NCBI GenBank assembly: GCA_947494675.1
Contig: CANLVP010000003.1
Location: 297,791 to 361,790 of the forward strand
DNA: 64,000 bases
DNA from: an uncultured Paracoccaceae bacterium
GTDB taxonomy: Bacteria; Pseudomonadota; Alphaproteobacteria; Rhodobacterales; Rhodobacteraceae
Reading direction: 5' to 3'
Shown here: one piece after another, positions 23,909 to 59,476 of the stretch
How positions within the stretch are numbered: position 1 is the stretch's first letter
Layout of the letters: every line of letters begins with the position of its first letter
The notes under the pieces: generated by a model
What the model was told of the DNA's origin: nothing
The model's database searches: none
What the model saw: the letters and a program-made list of their open reading frames with translations, nothing else
Program-made: the position numbers and the translations under genes

Positions 23909-24688
23909 TCAAACGACGCGCTCAACCATCATCTTTTTGATGCCGGCAATGGCTGCCGCGGGGTTCAACCCTTTGGGACAAGTCTTGGCGCAGTTCATGA
24001 TGGTGTGACACCGATAAAGCTTGAACGGGTCTTCAAGATCATCCAGACGCTCACCCGTCGCCTCGTCCCGGCTATCGACGATCCAACGGTGCGCGGCCAA
24101 AAGGGCGGCTGGCCCAAGATAGCGATCACCGTTCCACCAATATGACGGGCAGGACGTGGAACAACAGGCGCACATCACACATTCATAGCCACCATCAAGC
24201 TTTTTGCGGTCTTCAATCGACTGCTTCCACTCTTTCGCGGGGGTGTTTGTCTTGGTCTCAAGCCAGGGCATGATGCTGGCGTGCTGGGCGTAGAAATGCG
24301 TCAGGTCCGGGATCAGGTCCTTGACCACGGGCATATGCGGAAGCGGGTAGATTTTGATGTCGCCCTGCACCTCATCCAAACCATAGATACAGGCCAGCGT
24401 GTTGATGCCGTCGATATTCATCGCGCAAGACCCACAGATCCCCTCGCGGCAGGACCGGCGGAACGTCAGGGTCGGATCAATCTCATTCTTGATCTTGATC
24501 AGCGCGTCCAGAATCATCGGACCACAGGTGTCGAGATCGACAAAATAGGTGTCCAGCGATGGGTTTTTGCCATCATCAGGGTTCCAGCGGTAAATCTGGA
24601 CCTTTTTGACGTTGCTCGCCCCTTCGGGCTTTGGCCACGTCTTGCCTGTCACCATACGAGAGTTCTTGGGAAGCGTCAGTTGAACCAT
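23909..24688 (-). CDS. sdhB: Succinate dehydrogenase iron-sulfur subunit
   Basis: SdhB passes electrons from FADH2 in SdhA to ubiquinone in the SdhCD membrane anchor. The 259-residue protein has the 2Fe-2S plant-type motif CREGICGSC with a later Cys (LACIYG). The two C-terminal cluster motifs are [12 protein letters not shown] and [15 protein letters not shown]. It is separated from sdhA by two unrelated genes, unlike the usual sdhCDAB order, and is the last gene of the leftward operon. Confidence 0.96.
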
Positions 24689-27611: not shown

Positions 27612-27983
27612 TTAAAGGGCAAGGCGCACGACGGCGAAAACACCGGCGGCGGCTGCAAAATATGACAGGCAGATCATGCCGATGATGGCGGCCTTGCGGG
27701 CAAAGCCATGCACGTAATCCTCGATCAAGGTCTGCACACCACCGCGGAAGTGGTAGAAGCTGACAAAGATCGTCAGCCCGGCAATGATCGCAGGCATGGG
27801 GCGCTGATAATAGGCGACAACCTCTTCATATGGGCTGCCCAGAACGGCCCCAAAGGTGAAGATGAAGGCGATGATCAGCGGCACCAGCGCGACGGAGGTG
27901 ACCATCATTTTCCAGTGGTGTTCGGTGCCGGACTTGGCAGAGCCCATGCCAGCGGCGCGTTTGCGGTCGGTCAAATAAGCCAT
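27612..27983 (-). CDS. sdhD: Succinate dehydrogenase hydrophobic membrane anchor subunit
   Basis: This 123-residue protein has three membrane segments and the SdhD pattern HHWKMMVTSVALVPLIIAF, then the heme-ligand/quinone-region stretch TIFVSFYHFRGGVQTLIEDYVHG. With SdhC it anchors the complex and binds heme b and ubiquinone. It starts 9 bases after sdhC. Confidence 0.9.
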   Translation of the reverse strand: MAYLTDRKRAAGMGSAKSGTEHHWKMMVTSVALVPLIIAFIFTFGAVLGSPYEEVVAYYQRPMPAIIAGLTIFVSFYHFRGGVQTLIEDYVHGFARKAAIIGMICLSYFAAAAGVFAVVRLAL

Positions 27984-27992
27984 GCGGACCCC

Positions 27993-28376
27993 CTAGACGA
28001 CGATTGCGGTGAAGATGGTCAGTAGAACGCTGGCGATGATCGCGGCCTGCGCGTAAGTCTCAGACCGTTTGACGTCCAGCATATGGCCGCTGTCCCAGAT
28101 CAGGTGGCGCACGCCAAAGATCAGGTGATACCAGATCGCCCAGACAGACAGGAACATCACCAGATCGCCAAACCACGAGGTCACAAAGCCGTTTGCGGTG
28201 GCAAAGGCATCAGGCCCGGCAGCTGCCGCAACAAACCACCAGACGATCATTAGCGCGGCCACGATCAGGGCATTGCCCGTCAGGCGCGTAAAGATCGAAG
28301 TCATTGAGGTCAGTTGCGGACGATAGATCGTCAGATGCGGCGACAAGGGGCGGTTGCCCCGGTTCACATCGGCCAT
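27993..28376 (-). CDS. sdhC: Succinate dehydrogenase cytochrome b556 subunit
   Basis: This 127-residue protein has three membrane segments. The SdhC signature RPLSPHLTIYRPQ leads into SIFTRLTGNALI, and the heme-ligand histidine lies in YHLIFGVRHLIWDSGH. The frame is open to 28442, but the ATG at 28376 is preceded by AAGGGA and matches the family N-terminus. It is first in the leftward sdh operon. Two TGTGATCAC-type palindromes lie about 140-170 bases upstream. Confidence 0.92.
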   Translation of the reverse strand: MADVNRGNRPLSPHLTIYRPQLTSMTSIFTRLTGNALIVAALMIVWWFVAAAAGPDAFATANGFVTSWFGDLVMFLSVWAIWYHLIFGVRHLIWDSGHMLDVKRSETYAQAAIIASVLLTIFTAIVV

Positions 28377-28518
28377 GTCAGTTCCCTTCTTGGCGTCACG
28401 CTGATCGGCTGGATCAGCGCCTTTCGTCCGTTTATTGCGCATCTTTTTCGAAGAGTCACGTTAAGGCAGGGCTAATTTCCGCGCGAATTTGCCGCGTTAG
28501 CGATAAAAATTCAGCTTT

Positions 28519-28526
28519 GTGATCAC
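28519..28526. promoter_or_regulatory. sdh operator site 1 (TTTGTGATCACA core)
   Basis: GTGATCAC at 28519-28526 lies within TTTGTGATCACAC. It pairs with an identical core at 28540-28547, centre-to-centre distance 21 bp. It lies in the gap upstream of sdhC. The core recurs before sucC and before the GntR gene near 48.5 kb. Confidence 0.65.
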
Positions 28527-28539
28527 ACTTGCAAAAACT

Positions 28540-28547
28540 GTGATCAC
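28540..28547. promoter_or_regulatory. sdh operator site 2 (TGTGATCAC core)
   Basis: This is the second GTGATCAC core upstream of sdhC, within ACTGTGATCACGAA. It is exactly two helical turns from site 1, so proteins bound at both would sit on the same face of DNA. Confidence 0.65.
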
Positions 28548-28555
28548 GAAACCCG

Positions 28556-36124: not shown

Positions 36125-36352
36125 TGCAAGTCTCCTCGTTAAGAGCCGCGAAAATGCGCGGCGACAAGTGAACTGGTGAACCCTAACACATTTTTGACAA
36201 AAAATCGCCGTAACTTTTGCACAATTGCCCATTTTTTGGGCCAATCGGACCCTTTCACCCTGTGAGCAGAGCGCCAAAGTCGGAACTGCGCCACCGCAAT
36301 GCGCCGGATTCGGTGGGGTCGCGCGCCCAAAAACGTCTCTTATGGTGATTTT

Positions 36353-36360
36353 GTGATCAC
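36353..36360. promoter_or_regulatory. suc operator site 1 (TTTGTGATCACA core)
   Basis: GTGATCAC at 36353-36360 lies within TTTTGTGATCACAG. It is the first of a pair lying about 100-125 bases upstream of sucC. It matches sdh operator site 1 over TTTGTGATCACA. Confidence 0.65.
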
Positions 36361-36373
36361 AGCTTTTTTCAGT

Positions 36374-36381
36374 GTGATCAC
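36374..36381. promoter_or_regulatory. suc operator site 2 (TGTGATCACAAA)
   Basis: GTGATCAC at 36374-36381 lies within GTGTGATCACAAA. Its centre is 21 bp from site 1, the same spacing as the sdh pair, which argues against chance. Confidence 0.65.
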
Positions 36382-36478
36382 AAATGTCGGGTTTTTGCCG
36401 TAATCACGCAAACGGAAGTTTTTTCTTAAGTTTTAATGTGGTTTGACTGGATCAAATTCAGCCCAACGGGGAAGCATC

Positions 36479-37672
36479 ATGAACATCCACGAATATCAGG
36501 CCAAGGCCCTACTGAAGTCCTTTGGCGCGCCGGTCAGCGACGGTCGCCCGGTTTTGCGCGCCGAAGAAGCCAAGACTGCGGCAGGCGAACTTGATGGCCC
36601 GCTTTGGGTGGTCAAGGCGCAAATCCACGCAGGTGGCCGCGGCAAAGGCAAGTTCAAAGAGGCCGACGCAGGCGATGCGGGCGGTGTGCGCCTGACCAAA
36701 TCGGTGGAAGAGGCCGCGCAAGAGGCCAAAAAGATGCTGGGCCGCACGCTGGTGACCCACCAGACCGGCCCTGCGGGCAAGCAAGTCAACCGCATCTATA
36801 TCGAAGACGGCTCTGGCATCGAAACAGAGATGTATCTTGCGCTGCTCGTGGATCGTCAGACCAGCCGCATCGGCTTTGTCTGCTCTACCGAGGGCGGGAT
36901 GGACATTGAAGAGGTCGCGGCAAGCACCCCTGAAAAGATCCTGAACTTCACCGTGGACCCTGCCACGGGCTACCAGCCCTATCACGGTCGCCGCGTCGCC
37001 TTTGCGCTGGGTCTGACAGGCAATCAGGTTAAGCAATGCGTCAAGCTGATGGGCATTTTGTATAAAGCCTTCACCGACAAAGACATGGAGATGCTTGAGA
37101 TTAACCCCCTGATCGTCACCGATGGGGGTGATCTGAAAGTGCTGGATGCCAAGGTCAGCTTTGACGGCAACGCGGTTTATCGCCACCAGGACGTGGCCGC
37201 CCTGCGGGATGAGACCGAGGAAGACCCCAAGGAACTCGCCGCGTCGAAATACGACCTTAACTATATCGCGCTGGACGGCGAGATTGGCTGCATGGTCAAC
37301 GGTGCGGGTCTTGCGATGGCCACAATGGACATCATCAAGCTTTACGGGGCCGAGCCTGCGAACTTCCTCGATGTGGGCGGCGGTGCGACCAAGGAAAAAG
37401 TGACCGAAGCGTTCAAGATCATCACATCTGACCCCAACGTCAAAGGCATCCTTGTGAACATCTTCGGCGGCATCATGCGCTGCGACGTCATCGCCGAAGG
37501 CGTGGTCGCTGCGGTGAAAGAAGTTGGCCTGAAAGTGCCTCTGGTTGTTCGTCTAGAAGGCACAAACGTCGAAGCGGGCAAGGACATCATCAACAATTCC
37601 GACGTTGATGTCATCGCCGCTGACGACCTGAAAGACGGTGCCCAGAAGATCGTGAAGGCGGTCAAGGGGTAG
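36479..37672 (+). CDS. sucC: Succinyl-CoA ligase (ADP-forming) beta subunit
   Basis: With SucD it converts succinyl-CoA to succinate with substrate-level ATP formation. The 397-residue ATP-grasp protein begins [19 protein letters not shown] and has [32 protein letters not shown] and [20 protein letters not shown] precedes the ATG at 36479. It heads the suc operon but is separated from sucD by about 2.6 kb holding four or more unrelated genes, instead of the usual direct overlap. Confidence 0.96.
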
Positions 37673-37676
37673 GTCT

Positions 37677-38363
37677 GTGTTCTGGCGGTTGACCACTGTT
37701 GTATCCCTGTCCGCCTGTTCGGCTTGCGGCGCGGTTTCCGACAACGGAAACCAGCCGACCCATCAGGAGCGGATCGCGGACGCGTGGGCCTCAGAACTTC
37801 CATTTGTGGAAGCCGCCAGCGCCGCCAGCGCAGAATTTGCAGTCGAGACGTTCTTTGATGCATGTGTAATGAACGCGCGTGACGACCAAGGCACAAAACG
37901 CGCGTTTGACGCGCGCGGCTTTGATATCGTCAGAATTGAAAGTGAGATTGGCGTTGGCGATTTTCGCAAGGTTTCAACTACTTACAGAACACCAGAAATC
38001 GATCACCAGCGCGTCTTCTTCGGCATCACCAGCCACACAGACATCAGTCCTAGCACCTTTTGGGTCTGCGAGGTCAGCTTAGACCTTTCAAACCCAGAAG
38101 CCCTTACGTCAGAGTTGATCGTTCAAATGGCGCCGCAAGCGTGGCAACTGGCAGAGCCAAAAAGCGATAAGTCCGGTCGACTTGTCAGCCCGGCTAATCT
38201 GGGAGGCGGTTCCTATTCTATTCGACTTCCCAGCCTTGAACTCCATGACACACCAGAGCGTGCAAATCATGGTGGCTGCGGTGATCTTGACGCGTGCAAG
38301 TCTTGGTCGATGGCAAAACTCAGTTTCAGTGTTTTGCCTGAAACGGGAGGCAGCGCACCATGA
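37677..38363 (+). CDS. Putative exported lipoprotein inserted after sucC
   Basis: This 228-residue protein of unknown function has a short N-terminal hydrophobic stretch ending [10 protein letters not shown], which could be a lipobox with Cys14 or Cys17. Later stretches are [28 protein letters not shown] and a C-terminal [12 protein letters not shown] with paired cysteines. The start is a GTG at 37677, four bases after the sucC stop, so translation relies on coupling or on the GGGG upstream. Its codons are more A/T-rich than those of the flanking suc genes, suggesting acquired DNA. Confidence 0.6.
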
Positions 38364-38543
38364 TTGCCGAAGTTTCAGACGTGAATGCGATCACTGTGCG
38401 TCTTTGCGGAGTGAAATCTGCCGCGCCCCGAAAAGATCACATTTTAGACAAATCAGAGCTTCATCCAGATGCGATCACTACATCAAGGGCATTCCAAGTT
38501 GTGCGGGATGACCTTTGTGCAAATGCGCCAAAGGATGAATGTT

Positions 38544-38753
38544 ATGAAAAAGATCGCTCTGTCACTGTTTGCCGCCGCAACCCTGTCCGCCTGTATGGGC
38601 ACGACAAACGGCGCACCCGTCATGCAGACCGAGGTTATCTCGACCTCCGGGTCCGGCGTCACAGCCGGTTGTGCCAGCGTTCATATGCGGACCACCAACG
38701 GTCTGCCGATGCGTTGCGGCCCACAAACGGTCAAGCCTTACACCTTCCAGTAA
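38544..38753 (+). CDS. Small lipoprotein A with RCGPQ motif
   Basis: This 69-residue lipoprotein has signal MKKIALSLFAAATLSAC and lipobox LSAC (Cys17). The mature part ends in TTNGLPMRCGPQTVKPYTFQ, shared with the next small gene. AAAGGA lies about 9 bases upstream of the ATG at 38544. It lies in the sucC-sucD insertion. Probably anchored in the outer membrane; function unknown. Confidence 0.72.
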   Translation: MKKIALSLFAAATLSACMGTTNGAPVMQTEVISTSGSGVTAGCASVHMRTTNGLPMRCGPQTVKPYTFQ

Positions 38754-38972
38754 GGCCGGGTCACCTTTCGGCATCGCCCCGCGGTGCCCAAACAGGCAAA
38801 GACTTGCCCAGACGTGCCTTAACGTCTCGGCAAGGCTTTGCCATGCTATTGCCATACGACTTCCATCATCTCGCCTATGGAACTTGTGATGTAGATGACA
38901 TCGCAACCGCGTCCGCTGGCCTGTTCTGGGGGGCAGGACGCCCTGACATTGAACAGTCAAAGGACCAAACAG

Positions 38973-39161
38973 ATGATGAAATACGCTCTTCTCACCACCG
39001 CCGCACTCGCACTTTCGGGCTGCCTGGAAAGCTCCAACTCCGCGTCGGTGGCACGTCTGGACACCCTGTCGTCCAGCTGCGGCAACCCCAATATGCAAAC
39101 GCTAAACGGTCTGCCAATGCGCTGCGGCCCTCAGGTCGCCTCGCCCTACACGTTCAAGTAA
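38973..39161 (+). CDS. Small lipoprotein B with RCGPQ motif
   Basis: This 62-residue lipoprotein has signal MMKYALLTTAALALSGC and lipobox LSGC (Cys17). Its C-terminus LNGLPMRCGPQVASPYTFK closely matches that of lipoprotein A, while the middle differs. The two are therefore diverged paralogues of a short secreted family with invariant Cys. AAAGGA precedes the start. It ends 58 bases before the sulfotransferase-like gene. Confidence 0.72.
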   Translation: MMKYALLTTAALALSGCLESSNSASVARLDTLSSSCGNPNMQTLNGLPMRCGPQVASPYTFK

Positions 39162-39219
39162 CACCTTTCGGCGCGGCGCTTGCCGCCGCGCCGCTTCCGC
39201 GCATCCATGAGGTGCGCGC

Positions 39220-40203
39220 ATGAGGGCGATTGTCCACATCGGGATGCCCAAGACGGGCAGCAGCAGCATTCAGGATTTCCTCCACCTAAATGCAGACGCG
39301 CTTGCGGACCAAGGATTTTGTTATCGCAGGTTCGACCCTGCGGACATCTGTCAGCGCGAATATTTATCGGTTGTTTTCCAAGCGACGGGGCGCAATTTCG
39401 ACGACCCGGTCCAGATGGTCGCCTCCAAAATGCGCACCCCAGACGACGTCACACGCCGCGCAGCAGATTTGGACCGCTGGATCGCCACGCAAATCGCCGA
39501 GTCAAATGCCGACGTCTGGGTGATATCAAACGAATTTCTATCGTCTGTGATCATGAGGCTTGACGGCCAAGCCGCCGTGCACGAATGGCTCAGCGCGCGC
39601 TTTAGTGATGTGCGCTACGTGATCTATCTGCGCAGTCAGGACACATGGACCGTTAGCATGTACTCGCAACGGTTGCGCGACGGCTTTGACGACAGTTTTG
39701 CTGACTACCTCGCCCAGACCAAACCGCGAAACTATGCAAAGCTGAGCAGGCACTGGGCCCGCACGGTGGGCGCCAAAAACTTTGAGGTGAGGCTATTTGA
39801 CCGGGCCGCGCTGAAAGACGGCGACCTGATTGCAGATTTTTCCGCCGTGGCAGGGATCAACCCGAACGGACTTGCCCGCCCCCCATCCATCAATCAGAGC
39901 TATACGCGCCGGTGCGCCCGCGCGGTACGCGCGCTGAATGCCGTGGTAGGCCGGGTTGTGCCGCGTCACAGCGCACTTAGCCGCGCGATCCGCAAAACGG
40001 GCCGGACGCTGGCAGAAGCGACGCTCAACACCGGACCCGCGCTCACACTCTCGCCAGAGCAACGCGCGACCTTGCTGGCACCGGTTGCCAAATCAAATGA
40101 GGCTGTGCGCAAGCGCTGGTTTTCGGACCGCCCGACACTTTTTGACACAACACCCACTCAACACGCGCAGGCAGGCAACCTTGCCTCAAGCGCACTACGC
40201 TAA
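39220..40203 (+). CDS. Sulfotransferase-like protein inserted before sucD
   Basis: This 327-residue predicted cytoplasmic protein has the PAPS-binding loop VHIGMPKTGSSSIQDFL at its N-terminus. A second family stretch, RYVIYLRSQDTWTVSMYSQRL, resembles the 3'-phosphate-binding region (R and S). It probably transfers sulfate from PAPS to a saccharide or other acceptor. It ends 48 bases before sucD. Its presence in a TCA operon is unexpected, and the acceptor is unknown. Confidence 0.75.
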   Translation: MRAIVHIGMPKTGSSSIQDFLHLNADALADQGFCYRRFDPADICQREYLSVVFQATGRNFDDPVQMVASKMRTPDDVTRRAADLDRWIATQIAESNADVWVISNEFLSSVIMRLDGQAAVHEWLSARFSDVRYVIYLRSQDTWTVSMYSQRLRDGFDDSFADYLAQTKPRNYAKLSRHWARTVGAKNFEVRLFDRAALKDGDLIADFSAVAGINPNGLARPPSINQSYTRRCARAVRALNAVVGRVVPRHSALSRAIRKTGRTLAEATLNTGPALTLSPEQRATLLAPVAKSNEAVRKRWFSDRPTLFDTTPTQHAQAGNLASSALR

Positions 40204-40251: not shown

Positions 40252-41133
40252 ATGGCCATTCTCGTCGACAAAAATACCAAAGTCATTTGCCAAGGGCTCA
40301 CCGGCTCGCAGGGCACGTTCCACTCTGAGCAGGCGATTGCCTACGGCACGCAAATGGTCGGCGGTGTGACCCCCGGCAAGGGCGGCCAGACCCATCTGGA
40401 CCTGCCGATCTTCAACTCCGTCCACGAAGCCAAGGCCGTGACAGAAGCCAACGCCAGCGTGATCTACGTCCCGCCCCCCTTTGCGGCAGATTCGATCCTT
40501 GAAGCGATCGACGCCGAGATGGAGCTGATCATCTGCATCACCGAAGGCATTCCGGTTCTGGACATGATGCGCGTCAAACGCGCGCTCGAAGGGTCTGCCA
40601 GCCGTCTGATCGGCCCAAACTGCCCCGGCATCATCACGCCTGACGCCTGCAAGATCGGCATCATGCCCGGCCATATCCACAAGCGTGGGTCGGTTGGTGT
40701 TGTGTCCCGCTCCGGCACGCTAACTTATGAGGCGGTCAAACAGACATCCGACAGTGGCCTTGGCCAGTCGACCGCTGTCGGTATCGGCGGCGACCCGATC
40801 AAAGGCACCGAGCATATCGATGTGCTCGACATGTTCCTCGATGATGATGAGACACATTCGATGATCATGATCGGTGAGATCGGTGGCTCTGCCGAGGAAG
40901 AAGCTGCCGAGTTCCTGACCGCACAAAAGAAAAAGGGCCGCTGGAAGCCGACCGCTGGCTTCATCGCGGGCCGCACAGCCCCTCCGGGCCGCCGCATGGG
41001 TCATGCCGGTGCGATTGTCGCCGGCGGCAAGGGCGACGCCGAAAGCAAAATCGAAGCGATGAAATCCGCTGGCATCGTGGTCGCCGACAGCCCCGCCACG
41101 TTGGGCGAGGCTGTTTTGGAAGCGATTGGCTAG
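40252..41133 (+). CDS. sucD: Succinyl-CoA ligase (ADP-forming) alpha subunit
   Basis: This 293-residue partner of SucC begins [21 protein letters not shown] and has the CoA-binding loop [10 protein letters not shown] and IGPNCPGII. The phosphohistidine loop is [21 protein letters not shown] precedes the ATG. It follows the sulfotransferase-like gene rather than sucC. A repeat-rich 76-base gap separates it from sucA. Confidence 0.96.
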
Positions 41134-41209: not shown

Positions 41210-44164
41210 ATGAACGACCATTCCCCCAACGACGTCTTTCACGCCTCCTCTTTTATGCAGGGGCACAACGCAGAATACGTAGAACAGCTTTACGCCCGCT
41301 ACGCCGATAACCCCGGCGCGGTCGATGAAAGCTGGCAGGCCTTTTTCCGGTCGCTGGGCGATGCCCCTGCGGATGCCAAGGCAGAGGCCGCTGGCCCCTC
41401 TTGGGCGCGCACCGATTGGCCGCCCGTGCCAAACGACGACCTGACAGCAGCCCTTGATGGGCAATGGCCTGCCGAACCCGAAGCCGCTGGCAAAAAGATC
41501 AAGGAAAAAGCCGCCGAAAAGGGCGTCTCGCTTGACGAAAGCCAGGTCCGCGCCGCCGTACTCGACAGCATCCGCGCGCTGATGATCATCCGCGCCTACC
41601 GGATCCGCGGCCACCTGATCGCAGAGCTTGACCCGCTGGGAATGCGGGCCAACACGCCGCACCCCGAACTTGATCCCGCATCCTACGGCTTTACCGCCGC
41701 CGACATGGACCGCCCGATTTTCATCGACAACGTGTTGGGTCTTGAGGTCGCGACGATGAACGAGATTATCGCCATCGTGAAACGCACCTATTGCGGCACC
41801 TTCGCGCTGCAATACATGCACATCTCCAACCCTGAAGAGGCTGGCTGGCTGAAGGAACGGATCGAGGGTCTGGGCAAGGAAATCAGCTTTACCCAGAACG
41901 GCCGTAAGGCGATCCTGAACAGCCTTGTCGAGGCTGAGGGCTTTGAGAAATTCCTGCATGTGAAATACATGGGCACCAAGCGTTTCGGCCTTGATGGTGG
42001 CGAGGCGCTGATCCCCGCGATGGAACAGATCATCAAACGCGGCGGCCAGCTTGGGCTTGAGGATATCGTGATCGGCATGCCGCACCGGGGCCGTCTGTCC
42101 GTGCTCGCCAATGTGATGGAAAAGCCTTACCGCGCGATCTTTAACGAATTTCAAGGCGGCAGCTTTAAGCCCGAGGATGTGGATGGCTCCGGCGATGTGA
42201 AATATCACCTCGGCGCCTCTTCTGACCGGACGTTTGACGACAACACCGTGCACCTCAGCCTGACCGCCAACCCCAGCCACCTTGAGGCGGTAAACCCCGT
42301 CGTGCTGGGCAAGGTCCGCGCGAAACAGGACCAGAAGAAGGACGAGGACCGCACAAAGGTCATGGCGATCCTGCTGCACGGCGATGCGGCCTTTGCAGGC
42401 CAAGGCGTTGTGGCCGAAGGCTTTGGCCTGTCCGGCCTCAAGGGCCACAAAACCGGCGGCACGATGCATATCGTGGTCAACAACCAGATCGGTTTTACCA
42501 CAGCACCGCACTTCAGCCGCTCATCCCCCTACCCCACAGACATCGCGCTGATGGTCGAGGCGCCGATCTTCCACGTCAACGGCGATGACCCAGAGGCGGT
42601 TGTGCACGCCGCCCGCGTGGCGACCGAGTTCCGCCAGAAGTTCCACAAAGACGTGGTGCTCGACATCATTTGCTACCGCCGCTTTGGTCACAACGAAGGC
42701 GATGAGCCGATGTTCACCAACCCGGTGATGTATAAAAAGATCAAGACGCACAAAACCACGCTCACGCTTTATACCGAACGCCTTGTGCGTGACGGGCTGA
42801 TCCCCGAGGGCGAGATCGAGGATATGAAAGCCGCGTTTCAGGCCTATCTGAACGAGGAATTTGACGCGGGCAAAAACTACAAACCCAACAAGGCCGATTG
42901 GTTGGACGGGCGCTGGTCACACCTCGACAAGAACGACGCCGATTATCAGCGCGGCCAGACCGCGATCAAGCCAGAGACGATGGCCGAGATCGGTCAAGCG
43001 CTGACAACTGCGCCCGATAACTTCAAGATCCACCGCACCGTGTCGCGTCTGCTTGAAACCAAAAAGGCGATGTTCGAAAGCGGCGAAGGGTTTGACTGGG
43101 CCACCGGTGAAGCGCTGGCCTTTGGATCGCTCGCGACCGAGGGCTACCCTGTGCGCCTGTCCGGTCAGGACTGCACACGCGGCACGTTCAGCCACCGGCA
43201 TTCGGCGCTGATCAATCAGGACGACGAAACCCGCTACTACCCGCTCAACAACATCCGCGATGGCCAAGCGCAATACGAAGTCATCGACAGCATGTTGTCG
43301 GAATACGCGGTACTGGGTTTCGAATACGGCTATTCACTTGCCGAACCCAATGCGCTGGTCATGTGGGAAGCGCAGTTTGGCGATTTTGCCAACGGCGCGC
43401 AGATCATGTTCGACCAGTTCATCAGCTCGGGCGAAAGCAAATGGCTGCGGATGTCCGGCCTCGTTTGCCTCTTGCCACATGGCTACGAGGGGCAAGGCCC
43501 CGAGCACTCCAGCGCGCGTCTGGAACGGTTCCTGACCATGTGTGGCGGTGACAACTGGATCGTCGCCAATTGCACGACGCCCGCGAACTATTTCCACATT
43601 CTGCGCCGTCAGGTGCACCGGGATTTTCGCAAACCGCTGATCCTGATGACGCCCAAGTCGCTGTTGCGCCACAAGATGGCCGTCAGCAAGGCCGAGGAAT
43701 TCCAAACCGGGTCATCCTTCCACCGGGTACTTTGGGATGACGCCCAGCAGGGCAATTCCGACACGAAGCTCAAGCCCGACGACAAGATCAAGCGGGTCGT
43801 GATGTGTTCCGGCAAGGTCTACTATGACCTGCTGGAAAAGCGCGACGAGATGGGCATCGATGACACCTACATCCTGCGGTTTGAACAGTTCTATCCCTTC
43901 CCCGCGCAATCTGCGGTGAACGAATTGCAGCGGTTCAAGAACGCCGAAATGGTCTGGTGTCAGGAAGAACCCAAGAACCAGGGCGCATGGTCCTTCATGG
44001 AACCCAATCTTGAGTGGGTCCTGACCCGCATCAAAGCCAAACACGCACGGCCCGTCTTTGCAGGCCGCGCCGCCGCCGCGTCGCCCGCCACGGGCCTCGC
44101 AAGCCAGCACAAAGCACAACAAGCAGCACTCGTCGCAGACGCGCTGAACATCAAAGGAAACTAA
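41210..44164 (+). CDS. sucA: 2-Oxoglutarate dehydrogenase E1 component
   Basis: This 984-residue thiamine-diphosphate enzyme decarboxylates 2-oxoglutarate and passes the succinyl group to lipoyl-E2. The N-terminal E2-binding peptide begins HASSFMQGHNAEYVEQLYARY. It has GMPHRGRLSVLANVM, the ThDP motif HGDAAFAGQGVVAEGF then VVNNQIGFTT, and C-terminal LPHGYEGQGPEHSSAR. Length is typical. It lies 3 bases upstream of sucB. Confidence 0.96.
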   Translation: MNDHSPNDVFHASSFMQGHNAEYVEQLYARYADNPGAVDESWQAFFRSLGDAPADAKAEAAGPSWARTDWPPVPNDDLTAALDGQWPAEPEAAGKKIKEKAAEKGVSLDESQVRAAVLDSIRALMIIRAYRIRGHLIAELDPLGMRANTPHPELDPASYGFTAADMDRPIFIDNVLGLEVATMNEIIAIVKRTYCGTFALQYMHISNPEEAGWLKERIEGLGKEISFTQNGRKAILNSLVEAEGFEKFLHVKYMGTKRFGLDGGEALIPAMEQIIKRGGQLGLEDIVIGMPHRGRLSVLANVMEKPYRAIFNEFQGGSFKPEDVDGSGDVKYHLGASSDRTFDDNTVHLSLTANPSHLEAVNPVVLGKVRAKQDQKKDEDRTKVMAILLHGDAAFAGQGVVAEGFGLSGLKGHKTGGTMHIVVNNQIGFTTAPHFSRSSPYPTDIALMVEAPIFHVNGDDPEAVVHAARVATEFRQKFHKDVVLDIICYRRFGHNEGDEPMFTNPVMYKKIKTHKTTLTLYTERLVRDGLIPEGEIEDMKAAFQAYLNEEFDAGKNYKPNKADWLDGRWSHLDKNDADYQRGQTAIKPETMAEIGQALTTAPDNFKIHRTVSRLLETKKAMFESGEGFDWATGEALAFGSLATEGYPVRLSGQDCTRGTFSHRHSALINQDDETRYYPLNNIRDGQAQYEVIDSMLSEYAVLGFEYGYSLAEPNALVMWEAQFGDFANGAQIMFDQFISSGESKWLRMSGLVCLLPHGYEGQGPEHSSARLERFLTMCGGDNWIVANCTTPANYFHILRRQVHRDFRKPLILMTPKSLLRHKMAVSKAEEFQTGSSFHRVLWDDAQQGNSDTKLKPDDKIKRVVMCSGKVYYDLLEKRDEMGIDDTYILRFEQFYPFPAQSAVNELQRFKNAEMVWCQEEPKNQGAWSFMEPNLEWVLTRIKAKHARPVFAGRAAAASPATGLASQHKAQQAALVADALNIKGN

Positions 44165-44167
44165 GTC

Positions 44168-45355
44168 ATGAGCACCGAAGTCCGCGTCCCCACCCTTGGC
44201 GAATCCGTCACCGAAGCGACCGTCGCCACATGGTTCAAGCAACCCGGCGATACCGTCGCCGTTGACGAAATGCTCTGCGAGCTTGAGACCGACAAAGTCA
44301 CCGTCGAAGTGCCTAGCCCCGTCGCTGGCACCCTGTCGGAAATCGTCGCCGCCGAAGGCGACACCGTTGGGGTAGATGCCCTGTTGGCGCAGATCGCCGC
44401 TGGCGACGCGGCCCCCGCACCTGCCGCCAAGAAAGAAGAGCCCAAGGCCGAAGCGGCCCCTGCCCCTGCGGCAGCGGCCAAAGACGTCGAAGACGCGCCA
44501 TCCGCGAAAAAGCTGATGGCTGAAAACAACCTCACGGACGTGCAAGGCACCGGCAAAGATGGCCGCGTGATGAAAGAGGATGTGCTGAACGCCCTCGCCT
44601 CACCCGCGCCCGCAGCGGCTGCGGCCCCGCGTGCACCCGTCGCTGCCGATCAGGCCGCGCGCGAGGAACGGGTGAAGATGACCCGCCTGCGCCAGACCAT
44701 CGCCAAGCGCCTGAAAGACAGCCAGAACACCGCCGCGATGCTGACCACCTACAATGAGGTCGACATGACCGAGGTCATGGCATTGCGCAATGAATACAAG
44801 GACTTGTTCCTCAAAAAGCACGGCGTAAAGCTGGGCTTTATGTCCTTCTTCACCAAGGCCTGCGTGCATGCCCTGCGCGAAGTGCCAGAGGTCAACGCCG
44901 AGATTGACGGCACCGACATCGTCTACAAGAACTATGTCAATATGGGCATCGCGGCTGGCACGCCCACCGGTCTCGTGGTCCCCGTGATCAACGACGCCGA
45001 CCAGATGTCTTTCGCCACCATCGAAAAAGCGATTGCCGAAAAAGGCGCAAAGGCCCGCGACGGTAAGCTCTCCATGGCGGAAATGCAGGGCGGCACCTTC
45101 ACCATCTCAAACGGTGGTGTCTACGGCTCGCTCATGTCCTCGCCCATCCTGAACCCACCGCAGTCGGGCATCCTTGGCATGCACAAAATCCAGGACCGCC
45201 CCATGGCGATCAACGGTGAAGTCGTCATCCGCCCGATGATGTATCTGGCCCTGTCCTATGATCACCGGATCGTTGATGGCAAAGGCGCTGTGACGTTCTT
45301 GGTTCGCGTCAAAGAAGCGCTGGAAGACCCCCGCCGGTTGCTGATGGATTTGTAA
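44168..45355 (+). CDS. sucB: Dihydrolipoyl succinyltransferase (2-oxoglutarate dehydrogenase E2)
   Basis: This 395-residue E2 has one N-terminal lipoyl domain with Lys43 in [12 protein letters not shown], then an Ala/Pro/Glu-rich linker. The peripheral-subunit-binding domain ([13 protein letters not shown]) follows, then the catalytic domain ending [20 protein letters not shown] with the HxxxDG motif. It makes succinyl-CoA and forms the core of the complex. It follows sucA by 3 bases. Two extra genes separate it from lpd. Confidence 0.96.
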
Positions 45356-45376: not shown

Positions 45377-45892
45377 ATGAAGAACCCTTTTGTGTCCCAT
45401 GGCCTGTCCGGTCACACGATACAGACGCTTCAGGTACATGGTGTTGTGCCGGTGATAGCATCGTACACGCCAAAAGAACCTAAGACGCCAAAGGAAAGGC
45501 GCGCAATGCGCGCCGAAGCCTTGGTCTCGTTTGCTGTGCTATGCACAATCGTTTTTATTCTGTTATCGACAGACAACTTTTTGCTTTTCGCGGGCGCGGC
45601 AGTGGTGAACTTTTTGTTGATGACCTACTGGAAAAACCTTGCTCATGTGTTCTTTGACTTTCAACTGACGCGTTTGCGTCTGCGCTTGCTACCGCTCATA
45701 CTCACCGTAGCAATTTTGGGACTATTCGTGATCGGGCAGCTTACGTTGTTCAATGCCGGCGTCATTATGGCGATGAATGCTATTCCAACGTTCTGGGCGC
45801 TTTGGATTGCATTGCGTCATCCGGACATCGTGATTCAACGTCGCGAAGCAATTCGTAAATTCTTGGCCCTCAACAACAGCGCCATAAAATGA
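45377..45892 (+). CDS. Membrane protein of unknown function between sucB and lpd
   Basis: This 171-residue protein has a short hydrophilic N-terminal region (YTPKEPKTPKERRAMRAEA) and four hydrophobic segments. These include LVSFAVLCTIVFILLST, LLFAGAAVVNFLLM and LILTVAILGLFVIGQ. It ends in a basic tail (RREAIRKFLAL). No family was recognised. It is only 21 bases after sucB and overlaps the MAPEG gene by ATGA, so the pair is cotranscribed. Codon use is more A/T-rich than in sucB, suggesting later insertion. Confidence 0.65.
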   Translation: MKNPFVSHGLSGHTIQTLQVHGVVPVIASYTPKEPKTPKERRAMRAEALVSFAVLCTIVFILLSTDNFLLFAGAAVVNFLLMTYWKNLAHVFFDFQLTRLRLRLLPLILTVAILGLFVIGQLTLFNAGVIMAMNAIPTFWALWIALRHPDIVIQRREAIRKFLALNNSAIK

Positions 45893-46299
45893 CCCCCGAA
45901 CTTACCGCCCTCGCCCTCGCCATTCTGTTGCAAGCGGCGCAGTTTTGCTTGATGGCCGTTCCGGCGAACCTTGAGTTAGGTCCTGGCAAGACGCTCAGCC
46001 CGCGTGATCCTGATCGCCTTGGCAAACCAATCCTCGATCAGGTTTCAACCAAAACCGGTCGTTTGATCCGTGCAATGAACAACCATTTTGAGGCGTTGAT
46101 CCTGTTCACGGCGACGGTCGCTGTGATCAGTCTTGCGGACAAGAACACCGGCTTTTCGGCGATCTGCGCCTATACCTATCTGGGCGCTCGCGTCCTGTAC
46201 GTCCCTGCTTATTATTTCGGTTTGACGCCTTGGCGTTCGCTGATCTGGTTTGTCGGGTTTTCCGCCACCATGCTGATGCTACTGTCAGCATTCATATGA
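45889..46299 (+). CDS. MAPEG-family membrane protein
   Basis: This 136-residue protein has four membrane segments and the MAPEG-type stretches GRLIRAMNNHFEALILFTA and YLGARVLYVPAYYFGLTPWRSLIWF. Family members include glutathione-dependent membrane enzymes, but bacterial MAPEG proteins are mostly uncharacterised. Its start overlaps the upstream membrane protein by ATGA. It lies 117 bases before lpd. A glutathione-related role is possible but not shown. Confidence 0.78.
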   Translation: MTPELTALALAILLQAAQFCLMAVPANLELGPGKTLSPRDPDRLGKPILDQVSTKTGRLIRAMNNHFEALILFTATVAVISLADKNTGFSAICAYTYLGARVLYVPAYYFGLTPWRSLIWFVGFSATMLMLLSAFI

Positions 46300-46416: not shown

Positions 46417-47805
46417 ATGGCCAGCTACGACGTCATCATCATTGGTTCCGGCCCCGGCGGCTATGTGTCCGCCATTCGCTGCGCGCAATTGGGCCTGAAA
46501 GTGGCCTGTGTTGAGGGGCGCGACACCCTTGGCGGCACCTGCCTGAACGTGGGCTGTATCCCGTCCAAGGCGCTGCTCCATGCCACCGAGATGCTGCACG
46601 AATCCCAGCACAACTTTGCTGAGATGGGCCTGAAGGGCAAAGCGCCTTCGGTCGACTGGAAACAGATGCTGGCCTACAAGGACAAGACCATCAGCCAGAA
46701 CACAGGCGGTATCGAATTTCTGTTCAAAAAGAACAAGGTAGACTGGCTCAAAGGCTGGGGCAGCATCCCTGAAGCGGGTAAGGTGAAGGTCGGTGATGAG
46801 GTCCATGAGGCCAAAAATATCGTCGTTGCAACCGGGTCTGAATCTTCTTCCTTGCCGGGTGTTGAGGTTGACGAAAAGGTGGTCGTGACCTCCACCGGGG
46901 CGCTTGAATTGGGCAAGGTTCCCAAGAGCCTTGTGGTGATCGGCGCGGGCGTTATCGGGTTGGAATTGGGGTCGGTCTATGCCCGCTTGGGGTCAGAGGT
47001 GACGGTGGTTGAATTCATGGATGCCATCACCCCCGGCCAAGATGGGGAGATCGCCAAGACGTTCCAGAAAATGCTGAAAAAGCAGGGCCTTACCTTTGTC
47101 ATGGGGGCTGCTGTGCAAGGCACAACGGTCAAGAACAACAAGGCGACGGTGACCTATAAGCTGCGCAAGGACGACAGTGAGGCGACGCTGACTGCCGACG
47201 CGGTTCTGGTGGCCACGGGCCGCAAACCCTGCACCGATGGGCTGGGGCTCGAGGCACTGGGTGTCGAAATGTCGGACCGCGGGCAGATCAAGACCGACGC
47301 GCATTACGCCACCAATATCAAAGGGATATACGCTATCGGCGACGCGATTGCGGGCCCGATGCTGGCGCACAAGGCCGAGGACGAGGGCATGGCTGTCGCC
47401 GAAGGGATTGCAGGGCAAAAGCCACATGTGAACTACGGTGTTATCCCGGGCGTGATCTATACACATCCGGAAGTCGCAAGCGTTGGTGAGACCGAAGAAA
47501 CCCTGAAAGAACAGGGGCGTGCCTATAAGGTCGGCAAGTTCAGCTTTATGGGCAATGCCCGCGCGAAGGCGAATTTCTCGGGCGATGGTTTTGTCAAAAT
47601 TCTGACCGACAAGGCGACGGATCGCATTCTTGGCGCGCATATTATTGGGCCCATGGCGGGTGATTTGATCCACGAGGTTTGTGTGGCGATGGAATTTGGT
47701 GCTGCCGCCGAGGATCTGGCCCGCACTTGTCACGCGCATCCAACCTATTCCGAAGCCGTGCGCGAAGCGGCATTGGCCTGTGGTGACGGCGCAATTCACA
47801 TGTAA
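46417..47805 (+). CDS. lpd: Dihydrolipoyl dehydrogenase (E3)
   Basis: This 462-residue flavoprotein reoxidises the lipoyl group of SucB and reduces NAD. The FAD motif is [22 protein letters not shown], and the redox disulfide is in [13 protein letters not shown]. The NAD motif is [19 protein letters not shown], and the C-terminal His-Glu pair is in [18 protein letters not shown] precedes the ATG at 46417. It is last in the suc operon and is followed by a REP-like palindrome and the convergent gntR. Confidence 0.96.
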
Positions 47806-47816
47806 GCGATTGGGAT

Positions 47817-47838
47817 GGTGGGCAAATTGCCCACCCTA
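47817..47838. repeat. REP-like palindrome between lpd and gntR
   Basis: GGTGGGCAAATTGCCCACC plus CTA (47817-47838) is the third copy of the element found between sucD and sucA. It lies between convergent genes and overlaps the gntR stop, so it may act as a bidirectional terminator or mRNA end. Confidence 0.7.
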
Positions 47839-48483
47839 CCCTTTCAACAGACGCAGGCCCTTGGTGGCATCGGTGCGCACGGCCAGCCGCAATCCCGGTT
47901 CGTCCCCTGCACGCAAGGCAGAGATGATCAGGCGATGCGTCGCGGGCGGCTCTGTTCGGTTCAACCGCCCATAAAGCGCCCGCATCGTCGGTCCAAGCTG
48001 CAACCAGACGGTTTCGGTCATGGCCAGCATCGCGGGCGCTTGGGCCCGCAGATAAAGCGTGCGGTGAAACTCCAGGTTCATCCGGATATAGCCCGTGGCG
48101 TCATGCCGCGCGATCATCTGGCTGACGCCATTGTTGATCGCCTCAAGCCGTTCAATCAGCGCGAAGTGGGCGCGGGGCAAGGCCCGGCTGGCAAGCTCTG
48201 GCTCTAGCAGGGCGCGCAGCGTTGCTAGTTCCTCGATCCGTTCGTTCGTCAGCTCTGGGGTTGAGACACGGCCCGAGGATGACAGGAACAAGGCCCCCTC
48301 CGCCGCCAGCCGTCGCACGGTTTCGCGGGCGGGCGTCATGGACACGCCGTATTCCTTGCCGATCCCGCGCAGGGTCAGCGCCTCACCCGGTCCGATTTCG
48401 CCATGCATGATGCGTGTGCGCAGAGCGCGATAAACCCGGTCATGGGCGACGCCTGCGTTGTCGGGGGTGCGTGGTTGGATCAT
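47836..48483 (-). CDS. GntR-family regulator (FadR/FCD type), probable TCA-operon regulator
   Basis: This 215-residue transcription factor has a winged helix-turn-helix at about residues 14-75 (YRALRTRIMHGEIGPGEAL, GVSMTPARETVRRLAAEG). An FCD ligand domain follows, with the NLEFHRTLY and THRLIISAL histidines that usually hold a metal and carboxylate ligand. It is convergent with lpd. A perfect TTTGTGATCACAAA palindrome lies 5 bases upstream of its ATG, and the same core is paired before sdhC and sucC. I infer autoregulation and control of both operons by an organic acid. Confidence 0.85.
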   Translation of the reverse strand: MIQPRTPDNAGVAHDRVYRALRTRIMHGEIGPGEALTLRGIGKEYGVSMTPARETVRRLAAEGALFLSSSGRVSTPELTNERIEELATLRALLEPELASRALPRAHFALIERLEAINNGVSQMIARHDATGYIRMNLEFHRTLYLRAQAPAMLAMTETVWLQLGPTMRALYGRLNRTEPPATHRLIISALRAGDEPGLRLAVRTDATKGLRLLKG

Positions 48484-48488
48484 GCCGC

Positions 48489-48502
48489 TTTGTGATCACA
48501 AA
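48489..48502. promoter_or_regulatory. gntR autoregulatory operator (TTTGTGATCACAAA)
   Basis: A perfect 14-bp palindrome ends 5 bases before the gntR ATG (48483) and covers the position where a ribosome site would be. A bound protein here would block gntR expression. The core equals those before sdhC and sucC. Confidence 0.7.
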
Positions 48503-50106: not shown

Positions 50107-52254
50107 TCACCTTAGGCGCAAAGCGTTGAGCAGAACAGTGATCGACGACAGGGACATGGCGATGGCCGCAGTCAGCGGTGTCGCGATCCCCGCGATGGCC
50201 AGCGGCACGGCGATCATGTTGTAGCCCGCCGCAATCGCGAAATTCTCAAGCACACGCAGGCGCGCGCTTTTGGATGTGGCGATGGCCAGCGGCACCTCGC
50301 GCAGGCTGCGCCCCAGAAGCACCACGTCAGAGGCGGCCCGCGAGGCATCCAGTGCGGAGGCGGGCGAGATCGAGGCATGGGCCAGTGCCAGGGCGGCAGT
50401 GTCGTTTAGGCCGTCACCCACCATCAGCACGTTTTTGCCGCTGGCCGTCTGGTCACGGATCACGGTGCATTTGTCATCGGGCGACAGCTCCGACCTTCCG
50501 GGAACGCCCAAGGTCTTGGCGATCTTGTCCACGGGTGCAGGTGCATCGCCTGAGAGGATTGAGACCTCCAACCCGCGTTGGGTGAGTGCTGCGACCGCGT
50601 CTTTTGCTCCGTCACGCAGGGTTTCGGACATGGGCAGCACAATGGGCGCTGCATCCCCAATCTTGAGCGCGGGAGAGCCTGCAGCCCCGACCCAAGCGCC
50701 TCGGCCCAACTGCACGACACGGCCCTGCCAAAGGGCGGAAATGCCCTGCCCTGCGGTCTCTGTCACGTCTGACAGCTCTGCGGGTCTGATGTCCGCCGGC
50801 ATCGCGGCTGTGATGGCGCGCGACACCGGGTGTTGCGATTGGCTGGCGAGTGCCGCGAGGATCGCTTGGTCTTGCGCCGACAGGACCGTGGGGTCGATGC
50901 GGGCGTGGCCTTCGGTCAGGGTGCCGGTTTTGTCAAAGATCACGGTGTCGACCTCTGCCAGACGTTCGATTGCGGTGGCGTCCTTGACCAGCAACCCGTG
51001 CCGGAAGAGCCGCCCGGCGGCGGCGGTCATGACGGCAGGCACGGCAAGGCCCAGCGCGCAGGGGCATGTGATGATGAGCACCGCAATCGCGATGTTGAGC
51101 GCCTTGGCCACGTCGCCGGAGACCACGAACCAACCGAAAAAGGTCGCAAAGGCCAAAAGGTGCACCAGCGGCGCATAGACCTGCGCGGCGCGGTCAGCGA
51201 GCGCGGTGTAGCGGTTCTTGGCCCCTTCGGCGGTTTCGACCATGGCGATCATGCGGCGCAGGGTCGTGTCTTCGCCCACAGCGGTGGCGCGCAGAGTGAT
51301 GGCGGCGCCGAGGTTGATCTCTCCGGCGGCGATCAGGGTGCCGGGGCCGGCGTCGATGGCAAGGCTTTCGCCGGTCAGGAACGACCGGTCCATCTGGGTG
51401 GTGCCTTTGATGATTTCGCCATCCACAGGCGCACGCATGCCCGATGCGATGATCACGTCATCGCCGGGGCGCAGGTCTGTGACCGCGACGGCTTGTGGGC
51501 CGTCCGGTGTGACCCGTGTGGCCCATGGCAGTTCCAGCGCGCTGAGTTCCTGCGCGGCAGAGCGGGCGGCGATCCGGGTGCGGTGATCAAGGTAGCGCCC
51601 GATCAGCAGGAAGAATGTGAGCGACAGGGCCGCGTCGAAATAGACCTGTTCGCTGCCTTGGGCGGTTTCATAGATCGACAGGCCGCAGGCCAGAATGATC
51701 GCGAGCGAGATCGGCACATCCATATTCAGTCGTCCCACACGCAGGGCGCGCCAGGCAGAGCCAAAGAAGACTTGGGCTGAGTAGATCAGTGTCGGCACCG
51801 CGATCAGGGCGGAAAGCCAATGAAACAGAATGCGCGTTGCTTCGGCAGCGCCGGACCAGACGGCGACGGAAAACAACATGACGTTCATCATCGCAAAGCC
51901 TGCGACGGCGAGTTTGGTGAGCAGCTTGCGCCCCTCAGGATCGGTTTCCACCGCTTGCATCATTTGCGCGTCAAGCGGCTGCGCCTCATACCCCAGCCCC
52001 GCAATCGCCTGCACAAGTTGGTCCACCGGCACGCTGGGTGCGTCGATCACAACCCGCTTGCGGCTGAGGTTGACGCGAGCCGCGCGCACGCCGGGCATGG
52101 CGGCAAGGCCACGCTCGATCGTACCGATGCAGGCCGCGCAGTGGATGGGTGGCAGGTGCAGCGTCACCTCACCCGCTTGGGCGGGGATGTTTGCCACGGC
52201 TTGCGGTGCGGCAACACAGCCCGGACAGGCGGCTATCGGGGCAGCGACGCTCAT
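50107..52254 (-). CDS. ccoI: Copper-transporting P1B-type ATPase CcoI
   Basis: This 715-residue ATPase supplies copper for cbb3 oxidase assembly. An N-terminal heavy-metal domain has the HCAAC motif near residue 38; an earlier CPGC could also bind metal. Then come TGES (phosphatase), CPC in ITCPCALGLAVPAV, the phosphorylation site DKTGTLTEG, the SQHPVS motif and GDGLNDTAAL. The gene overlaps ccoH by four bases, consistent with the usual ccoGHIS unit. Confidence 0.94.
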   Translation of the reverse strand: MSVAAPIAACPGCVAAPQAVANIPAQAGEVTLHLPPIHCAACIGTIERGLAAMPGVRAARVNLSRKRVVIDAPSVPVDQLVQAIAGLGYEAQPLDAQMMQAVETDPEGRKLLTKLAVAGFAMMNVMLFSVAVWSGAAEATRILFHWLSALIAVPTLIYSAQVFFGSAWRALRVGRLNMDVPISLAIILACGLSIYETAQGSEQVYFDAALSLTFFLLIGRYLDHRTRIAARSAAQELSALELPWATRVTPDGPQAVAVTDLRPGDDVIIASGMRAPVDGEIIKGTTQMDRSFLTGESLAIDAGPGTLIAAGEINLGAAITLRATAVGEDTTLRRMIAMVETAEGAKNRYTALADRAAQVYAPLVHLLAFATFFGWFVVSGDVAKALNIAIAVLIITCPCALGLAVPAVMTAAAGRLFRHGLLVKDATAIERLAEVDTVIFDKTGTLTEGHARIDPTVLSAQDQAILAALASQSQHPVSRAITAAMPADIRPAELSDVTETAGQGISALWQGRVVQLGRGAWVGAAGSPALKIGDAAPIVLPMSETLRDGAKDAVAALTQRGLEVSILSGDAPAPVDKIAKTLGVPGRSELSPDDKCTVIRDQTASGKNVLMVGDGLNDTAALALAHASISPASALDASRAASDVVLLGRSLREVPLAIATSKSARLRVLENFAIAAGYNMIAVPLAIAGIATPLTAAIAMSLSSITVLLNALRLR

Positions 52255-57920: not shown

Positions 57921-58760
57921 ATGACCTATCAATCGATCACCACGGTCATTCATGACCTGGACGAAAGTCATGCCGCGCTGGAATGGGCCATCGCCGCCAG
58001 CCGCGCATGGGGGGCCCATCTCAATATCATATGTGCCGGTGTCGATCATTCCGACCCCGGCTATTATTATGCAGGCGCACAGGCCATCGCGGTGCAGGAA
58101 AACCTGAGCGTGGCGCAAAGTGCCGCGTCCCAGATTGAGGACATGATCAAGACGCGCCTCGCCACAGAAGACATCCTGTGGGATTGCGAAGCTGTGACAG
58201 TGATGCTGAACGGGTTGGAACCCTTCATTGCCGATCATGCGCGGTTCTTTGATCTGGCGATCCTGCCAAAACCTTATGGCGCGGACCGGTCCCGCATTGA
58301 TGTCACGATCTTTGAGACCTGTCTTTTTGGTGCGGACATCCCGGTGATCGTGGTGCCCGACGGCGCCCCCTTTGTGGCCGAACCCAAAACGATTCTCGTC
58401 GGTTGGGATGATGGGGCAGAGGCGCTGGCCGCTTGCCGTGCCGCCCTGCCCTTTTTTGCCAAGGCGGTCGCCACGGATATCTGCATCATCGATCCACCCC
58501 TTGACCGGCAGGACCGGTCCGACCCCGGTGGTCGGCTCGCGCATATGATTGCACGACATGGGGCATCAGCCTCGATCACGGTCGCGGCCAAAGGGCCCGA
58601 CAGCATCGCGGCAGAGCTGTTAAGACGCGGAATGGAAAAGGACGCGTCGCTTTTGGTGATGGGGGCCTATGGTCATTCGCGCCTGCGCGAGGCGATGCTG
58701 GGTGGTGCGACACGCGACATCCTTCAGACGACATCGCTGCCCATCCTGATGGCGCATTAA
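57921..58760 (+). CDS. Tandem-domain universal stress protein near the cbb3 operon
   Basis: This 279-residue protein has two Usp domains in tandem. The first begins SITTVIHDLDESHAALEWAI. The second begins TILVGWDDGAEALAA and ends with the ATP-loop-like MGAYGHSRLREAMLGGATRDIL. GGAGA precedes the ATG at 57921; an upstream frame start at 57894 is unlikely. It shares the FNR-containing gap with ccoN and converges with fnrL with a 4-base overlap. Oxygen-limited expression is inferred, as for similar Usp proteins near cbb3 operons. Confidence 0.88.
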   Translation: MTYQSITTVIHDLDESHAALEWAIAASRAWGAHLNIICAGVDHSDPGYYYAGAQAIAVQENLSVAQSAASQIEDMIKTRLATEDILWDCEAVTVMLNGLEPFIADHARFFDLAILPKPYGADRSRIDVTIFETCLFGADIPVIVVPDGAPFVAEPKTILVGWDDGAEALAACRAALPFFAKAVATDICIIDPPLDRQDRSDPGGRLAHMIARHGASASITVAAKGPDSIAAELLRRGMEKDASLLVMGAYGHSRLREAMLGGATRDILQTTSLPILMAH

Positions 58761-59476
58761 TCCTCGCCTGCGGCCGCCTTGATCGCGGACATATCTTCGA
58801 TCGTCACCTGCCGGTTGCCCACCAGTGAAATCAGCCCTTCCTTTTTGAGGCTCGAGATTTGGCGGCTCACGGTTTCAAGCGTCAGACCAAGATAGCTTGC
58901 CATCGCGTCGCGGGTCAGTGGCAATTCGAACTGCGCAAGATCAAGACCGAGGTTGAGCCCCGGTGTGCGAGTCCGACGCTCAACCAACAACAAAAACGTC
59001 GCGATCTTTTCGCGGGCCGTTTTGCGGCCCAGCAAGAACATCCAGTCCCTTGCGGCGTCCAATTCGTCCAAGGCCATTTCAAGCATCCGCTGCGCGATGT
59101 GCGGCGTATCTTTCACCAGCTTTTCAAACTGCTGGCGACGAAAACAACACAGCGTCACCTCTGTCACGGCTGAGACGTCATAGAGGGCGGTGTCGCGCCC
59201 CGGTCGGCCCAAAAAATCGGAAGGTAGCAAAAGGCCCAGCGTTTGACGGCGGCCATCCTCTGCGATTTGTTCAATCGTGGCCGTGCCGCTGACGACAGAG
59301 GCCACAAACTCAAGCCGGTCACCACGCCACACAATGGGCTGGCCCGCCTCGAACGTCCGGTAATACTTCATGCTTTCCAGCATCGCCAGCTCATCCGCGT
59401 CACAACTGGCGCAGACGGCGCGGTGCCGAATTGGGCAGGATTGGCACTGCGAAGGACGTTCGGCAAGTGCGACCAT
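58757..59476 (-). CDS. fnrL: Fnr-type oxygen-responsive regulator
   Basis: This 239-residue CRP/FNR-family activator of anaerobic or microaerobic genes senses oxygen through a 4Fe-4S cluster. The N-terminus has four cysteines (C11, C14, C22, C25), with more at C110-C111 in TLCCFRR, enough for the cluster. The helix-turn-helix ends in LTLETVSRQISSLKKEGLI, with the E-xx-SR DNA-contact residues of FNR. It is next to the cbb3 cluster with two matching FNR sites, supporting the FnrL call. Confidence 0.92.
   Translation of the reverse strand: MVALAERPSQCQSCPIRHRAVCASCDADELAMLESMKYYRTFEAGQPIVWRGDRLEFVASVVSGTATIEQIAEDGRRQTLGLLLPSDFLGRPGRDTALYDVSAVTEVTLCCFRRQQFEKLVKDTPHIAQRMLEMALDELDAARDWMFLLGRKTAREKIATFLLLVERRTRTPGLNLGLDLAQFELPLTRDAMASYLGLTLETVSRQISSLKKEGLISLVGNRQVTIEDMSAIKAAAGED

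Follow-up and report, generated by a model that had tools for sequence, protein, structure and literature searches.

The GntR-family regulator gene (gntR) that follows lpd in the genome of an uncultured Paracoccaceae bacterium encodes the counterpart, by orthology, of AkgR, a known regulator of Rhodobacter sphaeroides. We consider it highly probable that paired sites upstream of the sdh and suc operons serve this protein in activating both, while a single site on its own promoter allows it to repress itself. The novelty is modest: the core of this arrangement has been described before, and our analysis adds the conserved geometry of the paired sites and the self-operator. An apparently unknown gene is thereby moved to a described regulator.

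The regulator and its sites

The window, the whole stretch of 64,000 nucleotides that we analysed, contains the following features.

23909–24688: sdhB of sdhCDAB, reading frame
25788–27593: sdhA of sdhCDAB, reading frame
27612–27983: sdhD of sdhCDAB, reading frame
27993–28376, minus strand: sdhC, first gene of sdhCDAB (Pfam Sdh_cyt)
28455–28459, minus strand: GTGAC element, possible promoter part, downstream of the sdhC pair and conserved among relatives
28518–28527, no strand assigned: member of the sdhC pair nearer sdhC, TGTGATCACA (motif match)
28539–28548, no strand assigned: member of the sdhC pair farther from sdhC, TGTGATCACG, 21 bp from its partner
36352–36361, no strand assigned: member of the sucC pair farther from sucC, TGTGATCACA (motif match)
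36373–36382, no strand assigned: member of the sucC pair nearer sucC, TGTGATCACA, 21 bp from its partner
36479–37672, plus strand: sucC, first gene of the sucC...sucD-sucA-sucB...lpd cluster (Pfam)
40252–41133: sucD of the same cluster
41210–44164: sucA of the same cluster
44168–45355: sucB of the same cluster
about 46417–47805: lpd of the same cluster
47836–48483, minus strand: gntR, AkgR orthologue of 215 aa (Pfam, identity to the G094 gene, tree)
48489–48494, minus strand: expected −10 position of the gntR promoter, CACAAA, inside the operator, 17 nt after the −35 and five nt before the ATG (placed by spacing)
48489–48502, no strand assigned: predicted single operator of the gntR promoter, TTTGTGATCACAAA
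48512–48517, minus strand: predicted −35 of the gntR promoter, TTGACC, overlapping the ygjP stop codon
48514–49203, minus strand: ygjP-like metallopeptidase gene (Pfam YgjP-like), co-oriented with gntR and directly upstream of it

A first-pass annotation of this DNA had reported that a perfect palindrome precedes the gntR start codon by five bases and that further copies of its core lie in pairs ahead of sdhC and sucC, and both observations are correct: TTTGTGATCACAAA at 48489–48502 is separated by five bases from the ATG at 48483–48481 on the minus strand, and GTGATCAC lies at 28518/28539 and 36352/36373. Allowing up to two mismatches, the window holds four matches of the 14-mer TTTGTGATCACAAA where 0.23 would be expected, and 0 of 100 shuffles reach that number. 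Exact copies of TGTGATCACA lie at 28518, 36352, 36373 and 48491; the other member of the sdhC pair, at 28539, has one mismatch to it, which falls outside the exact GTGATCAC core. The genome as a whole contains six copies of TGTGATCACA, namely these four and two within coding frames that from their translations are a SCO1-like gene and a sugar-isomerase-like gene, and GTGATCAC pairs with a gap of 0–30 bases occur twice, at the sdhC and sucC promoters. A local target set is supported for this genome by the distribution of predicted sites.

The annotation also placed gntR directly after lpd, the last gene of the suc operon. The position is right, but gntR is convergent with lpd and thus outside the suc operon, and it sits behind the co-oriented ygjP. 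The ygjP stop codon and the gntR ATG are 30 bp apart with the palindrome inside the gap, and ygjP is upstream and co-oriented in all 102 loci in which it was found across a panel of orthologue-bearing genomes. Of 112 genera, 106 are represented among the 107 genomes of this panel (g51 twice); it omits g11, g16 and g20, which were not taken, and g56, g67 and g98, which lack a close orthologue.

Orthology with AkgR

AkgR (RSP_0981) of R. sphaeroides is reportedly treated in a 2015 paper by Imam, Noguera and Donohue (mBio 6:e02461-14), and we take RSP_0981 and AkgR to be one gene. In the available parts of PMC4344238, sdh, sucCD and sucAB-lpd are predicted targets of the GntR regulator RSP_0981; in those of PMC6365646, the AkgR site is given as GTGATCAC and AkgR is termed a 'transcriptional activator' in R. 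sphaeroides. The statement that no regulator with such a site had been described in Rhodobacterales is therefore not supported: gntR is the orthologue of this gene.

Several lines of evidence place the gntR product in the AkgR group. It carries a GntR helix-turn-helix DNA-binding domain (48.1 bits, cut-off 27) and an FCD domain (63.1 bits, cut-off 24.3) in Pfam; GTGATCAC sites precede sdh and suc; and the protein is closest to, and shares a clade with, the product of the R. sphaeroides gene beside sdh, which has the same ygjP neighbour, where the species (genome G094) and the number RSP_0981 are our own assignments. The G094 gene (G094:C4:2739666) is 73% identical to gntR, lies behind ygjP and adjoins sdhB. 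In a tree built from 26 panel orthologues (out of 107) and 16 other proteins, the window and G094 proteins fall in one clade with support of 88/84, or 100/99 with the proteins of G110 and G227 as sisters, and the paralogues of the window genome fall outside it; several of the paralogues sit on long branches, whose branching order is uncertain.

We assign G094 to R. sphaeroides: its reaction-centre H protein is 100% identical to that of R. sphaeroides, which is presumably the species of the matched PDB chains, and two published RSP_0489 ChIP motifs sit in its contig C4 inside published chromosome 1 peaks. The gene is probably RSP_0981 given its position and its being the one GntR gene found with eight GntR query proteins in the 38.5 kb around sdh and suc. 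The G094 pairs lie at 2729960 and 2729981 (sucC) and at 2734764 and 2734785 (sdhC), both 21 bp apart. Protein, DNA site, target operons and 21 bp pairs at sdhC and sucC are thus as in the window; the two loci differ in that gntR has an own-promoter site and adjoins lpd, whereas for the G094 gene, which adjoins sdhB, no such site was found.

Other known regulators are more remote. The closest sequence of solved structure is McbR (YncC; PDB 4p9f; E 3.3e-17), which is distant and has another function. PdhR, to which we liken gntR by description, also belongs to the GntR regulators, and in Shewanellaceae its control extends to sdhCDAB according to the available text of PMC5343134, but it responds to pyruvate and belongs to another lineage. 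Two NCBIfam models were also tried and rejected, namely the equivalog NF008504 (PRK11414; 75.1 bits against a curated cut-off of 225) and TIGR03338 (phnR_burk; 47.9 bits against 271.5).

Co-occurrence of the gene and the paired sites

We searched 292 Rhodobacteraceae genomes for both the protein and the pair. A protein match at E 1e-20 or better was present in 290, and one at 1e-70 or better, which we used to define a close orthologue, in 287. The pair was present in 287 genomes, of which about 226 had exactly two pairs, 42 had more and 19 had one; a control with the reversed pattern gave 0 among the genomes listed except in G097 (1). Loss of the motif where gntR is kept would have counted against the link, but 286 of 287 genomes with a close orthologue have an exact pair; the exception, G231, has degenerate pairs in which each site carries one to two mismatches and the 21 bp spacing is kept.

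The converse, sites persisting where the gene is gone, was not seen in four of the five genomes in which a close orthologue could not be read. G232 and G141 lack one, and their sdhC and sucC are not preceded by sites; G110 and G227 encode a relative at 46–48% identity and have no pair at either promoter. The fifth, G023, keeps both pairs, with a paralogue as its best protein match, but at the expected place of gntR its ygjP passes into a stretch of N, so that this genome weighs on neither side. Fisher's exact test gives p = 1.7e-8 when G023 is left out and 8.4e-8 when it is counted, values that are uncorrected for kinship, the four genomes lacking both pair and orthologue coming from three genera. 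In G110 and G227 (loci L089 and L090) a TGTGATCACA site lies about 60 bases ahead of the diverged AkgR-like gene, whose product is possibly a rewired regulator.

These patterns bear on the proposal that the GTGATCAC sites serve another regulator, either a GntR paralogue or a protein of the CRP/FNR type, with gntR linked to them by location only. The window genome has at least ten further GntR-like matches, and the TGTGA and TCACA halves of the site recall those of CRP. In a CRP site, however, these halves stand six bases apart, and here they adjoin with none between, so that a CRP-type site was rejected. PS417_07240 of Pseudomonas simiae, a GntR-family protein 32% identical to AkgR, is likewise proposed for GTGATCAC in the available parts of PMC6365646; by that description it is a candidate regulator of deoxyribonate oxidation, and differs from gntR in pathway and organism. 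Against the proposal as a whole, the pairs are gone from the four family genomes without a close orthologue despite other GntR genes or sdh/suc being present, and the site recurs on the promoter of gntR itself. We regard control by another regulator as very improbable. The comparison supports the view that the site, gntR and the sdh and suc operons belong together, and the earlier suggestion of a local, self-controlled regulator of sdh and suc is upheld as far as this association, the local targets and the presence of an own operator go.

Geometry of the pairs

Spacing between the paired sites is narrowly constrained. Among 75 listed pairs, which come from 35 of the 287 positive genomes, it is 21 bp in 55, 20 bp in 12 and some other value in 8. 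At 45 sdhC and sucC promoters, a set biased in that most loci outside the window were fetched by the pair pattern, we counted 40 with exact cores at 21 bp, one at 21 bp with a mismatch, three at 20 bp and one at 19 bp; regions of less than 120 bases upstream, alignments starting beyond residue 12 and duplicate sequences had been dropped. Within this set, promoters of named loci that were fetched independently of the motif had a 21 bp spacing in 12 of 12 usable cases. Elsewhere in the class, pairs with a gap of 9–16 bases occur in 5 of 285 genomes, compared with 4 of 4 family members in the same draw. By this survey, predicted AkgR control of sdh and suc extends to almost all of the Rhodobacteraceae sampled, and its strict pair geometry of 20–21 bp lends itself to direct tests.

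Some loci depart from the simple pair. Upstream of sucC, L144, L153 and L166 carry arrays of at least three GTGATCAC sites with spacings of 26 and 21 bp, and in another family of the class a single GTGATCAC pair is present in G305 (L298), spaced 22 bp, and in G437 (L299), spaced 21 bp.

Activation or repression of sdh and suc

Repression is common among FCD regulators, and the first-pass annotation had pointed out that they often repress their own genes. By the general rule gntR would be a classical FCD repressor of sdh and suc relieved by a TCA acid, and the site at its own gene, which overlaps the expected −10, would be plain autorepression. The rule fits the main targets poorly. The pairs begin 125–201 bases ahead of the start codon in 44 sdhC and sucC promoters, well upstream and activator-like, and the sdhC pair lies upstream of the conserved GTGAC rather than over it; of 21 sdhC upstream regions that hold an exact pair, 18 have the element, 48–69 nt beyond the pair. 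AkgR is, moreover, called an activator in print (PMC6365646, in the parts available). We therefore rank repression of sdh and suc below activation and hold it to be quite unlikely; activation by the gntR product is what we infer from the published statement on AkgR.

We also considered co-control by CceR, whose published motif is GTT-N6..8-AAC. This motif occurs in 8 of 23 sucC regions (3.95 expected) and 2 of 22 sdhC regions (4.49 expected), counts that give co-control no clear support.

The own-promoter site

The single site ahead of gntR is conserved in much of the family. It was found in 74 of the 107 panel genomes (59 exact), against 0.75 expected, and ends 7–9 nt ahead of the next in-frame start codon in 68 of the 74. 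With the start codon chosen as the next in frame beyond the site, TTGAC lies 34–38 nt before it in 71 of the 74, against 1.4 expected, and in 58 of these 71 the 10-mer starts 17 nt after the first T. The layout in the window (TTGACC, 17 nt, CACAAA, five nt, ATG) would place transcription start at or near the ATG and the operator over the −10, so that a leaderless promoter is predicted, although CACAAA is a poor match to TATAAT. The TGA of TTGAC is the ygjP stop codon in 31 of the 71 genomes and not in 35, with ygjP not found in the remaining 5; because of this double use, TTGAC could be held for another reason.

One may postulate instead that the single site blocks read-through from ygjP into gntR, or raises gntR expression, with no autorepression involved. 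The 30 bp distance and shared strand of the two genes lend this some plausibility. TTGAC at a fixed distance in 71 of 74 genomes nevertheless points to a promoter of gntR's own, and the distance from site to start codon is unchanged in loci that lack an adjacent ygjP (L225, L279 and others). A role in read-through or in raising expression thus appears unlikely to us, and self-repression remains our preferred reading of the single site.

Self-repression would not be general, given that 33 of the 107 panel genomes lack the site, as do 65 of the 80 named loci. The 33 include R. sphaeroides, which is also among the 20 of them that keep TTGAC; neither in R. sphaeroides (G094) nor in Cereibacter ovatus was an own site found. 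The named loci are the best 80 of 462 relatives, with no R. sphaeroides record among them; the site is present in 15, among them Ruegeria, Phaeobacter, Roseobacter MED193 and Cognatishimia, and was not found in the other 65, which include the Cereibacter and Gemmobacter records listed there. We found no report of an AkgR self-operator in the literature searched, which did not extend to the 2015 AkgR paper and is weak evidence; the stem 'autoregul' is absent from the available parts of PMC4344238.

Proposed mechanism

We propose that a dimer of the AkgR orthologue would bind GTGATCAC, and that ahead of sdhC and of sucC two dimers, sharing a face of the DNA and separated by two helix turns (21 bp), would activate transcription. 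As both promoters would respond to such paired dimers, succinate dehydrogenase, succinyl-CoA synthetase and 2-oxoglutarate dehydrogenase would be made together. On the single site over the gntR −10, one dimer would block the promoter, and the regulator would thereby limit its own amount. Binding, pairing on one face, self-repression, the leaderless mRNA and metabolite control are what we infer from site positions and from the described regulator. Whether arrangement itself sets the outcome, such that phased pairs activate the TCA operons and a lone −10 site on a leaderless promoter provides negative feedback, we judge to be an evenly balanced proposition.

If this scheme is true, a feedback loop would be widespread in the family and absent from the model species R. 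sphaeroides, so that lessons drawn from R. sphaeroides would miss it; the self-operator in this sense predicts a loop beyond the reach of work on that organism.

Additional features of the locus

Residues H106, H140, H183 and D205 of the gntR product are each at least 98% conserved across the 107 orthologues. We take the metal sites of FCD domains to be Asp-His-His-His, an order in which the Asp and one His may be swapped in gntR. The interval between sucC and sucD in the window (37677–40203) holds three same-strand frames of 228, 287 and 327 aa with no Pfam match, unlike in G094, where the two genes are adjacent, and that between sucB and lpd (45377–46299) holds a 171 aa frame without a Pfam match and a MAPEG-family gene. 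Also nearby on the minus strand are a heavy-metal P-type ATPase gene at 50107–52254 and a CRP/FNR-type regulator gene at 58757–59476.
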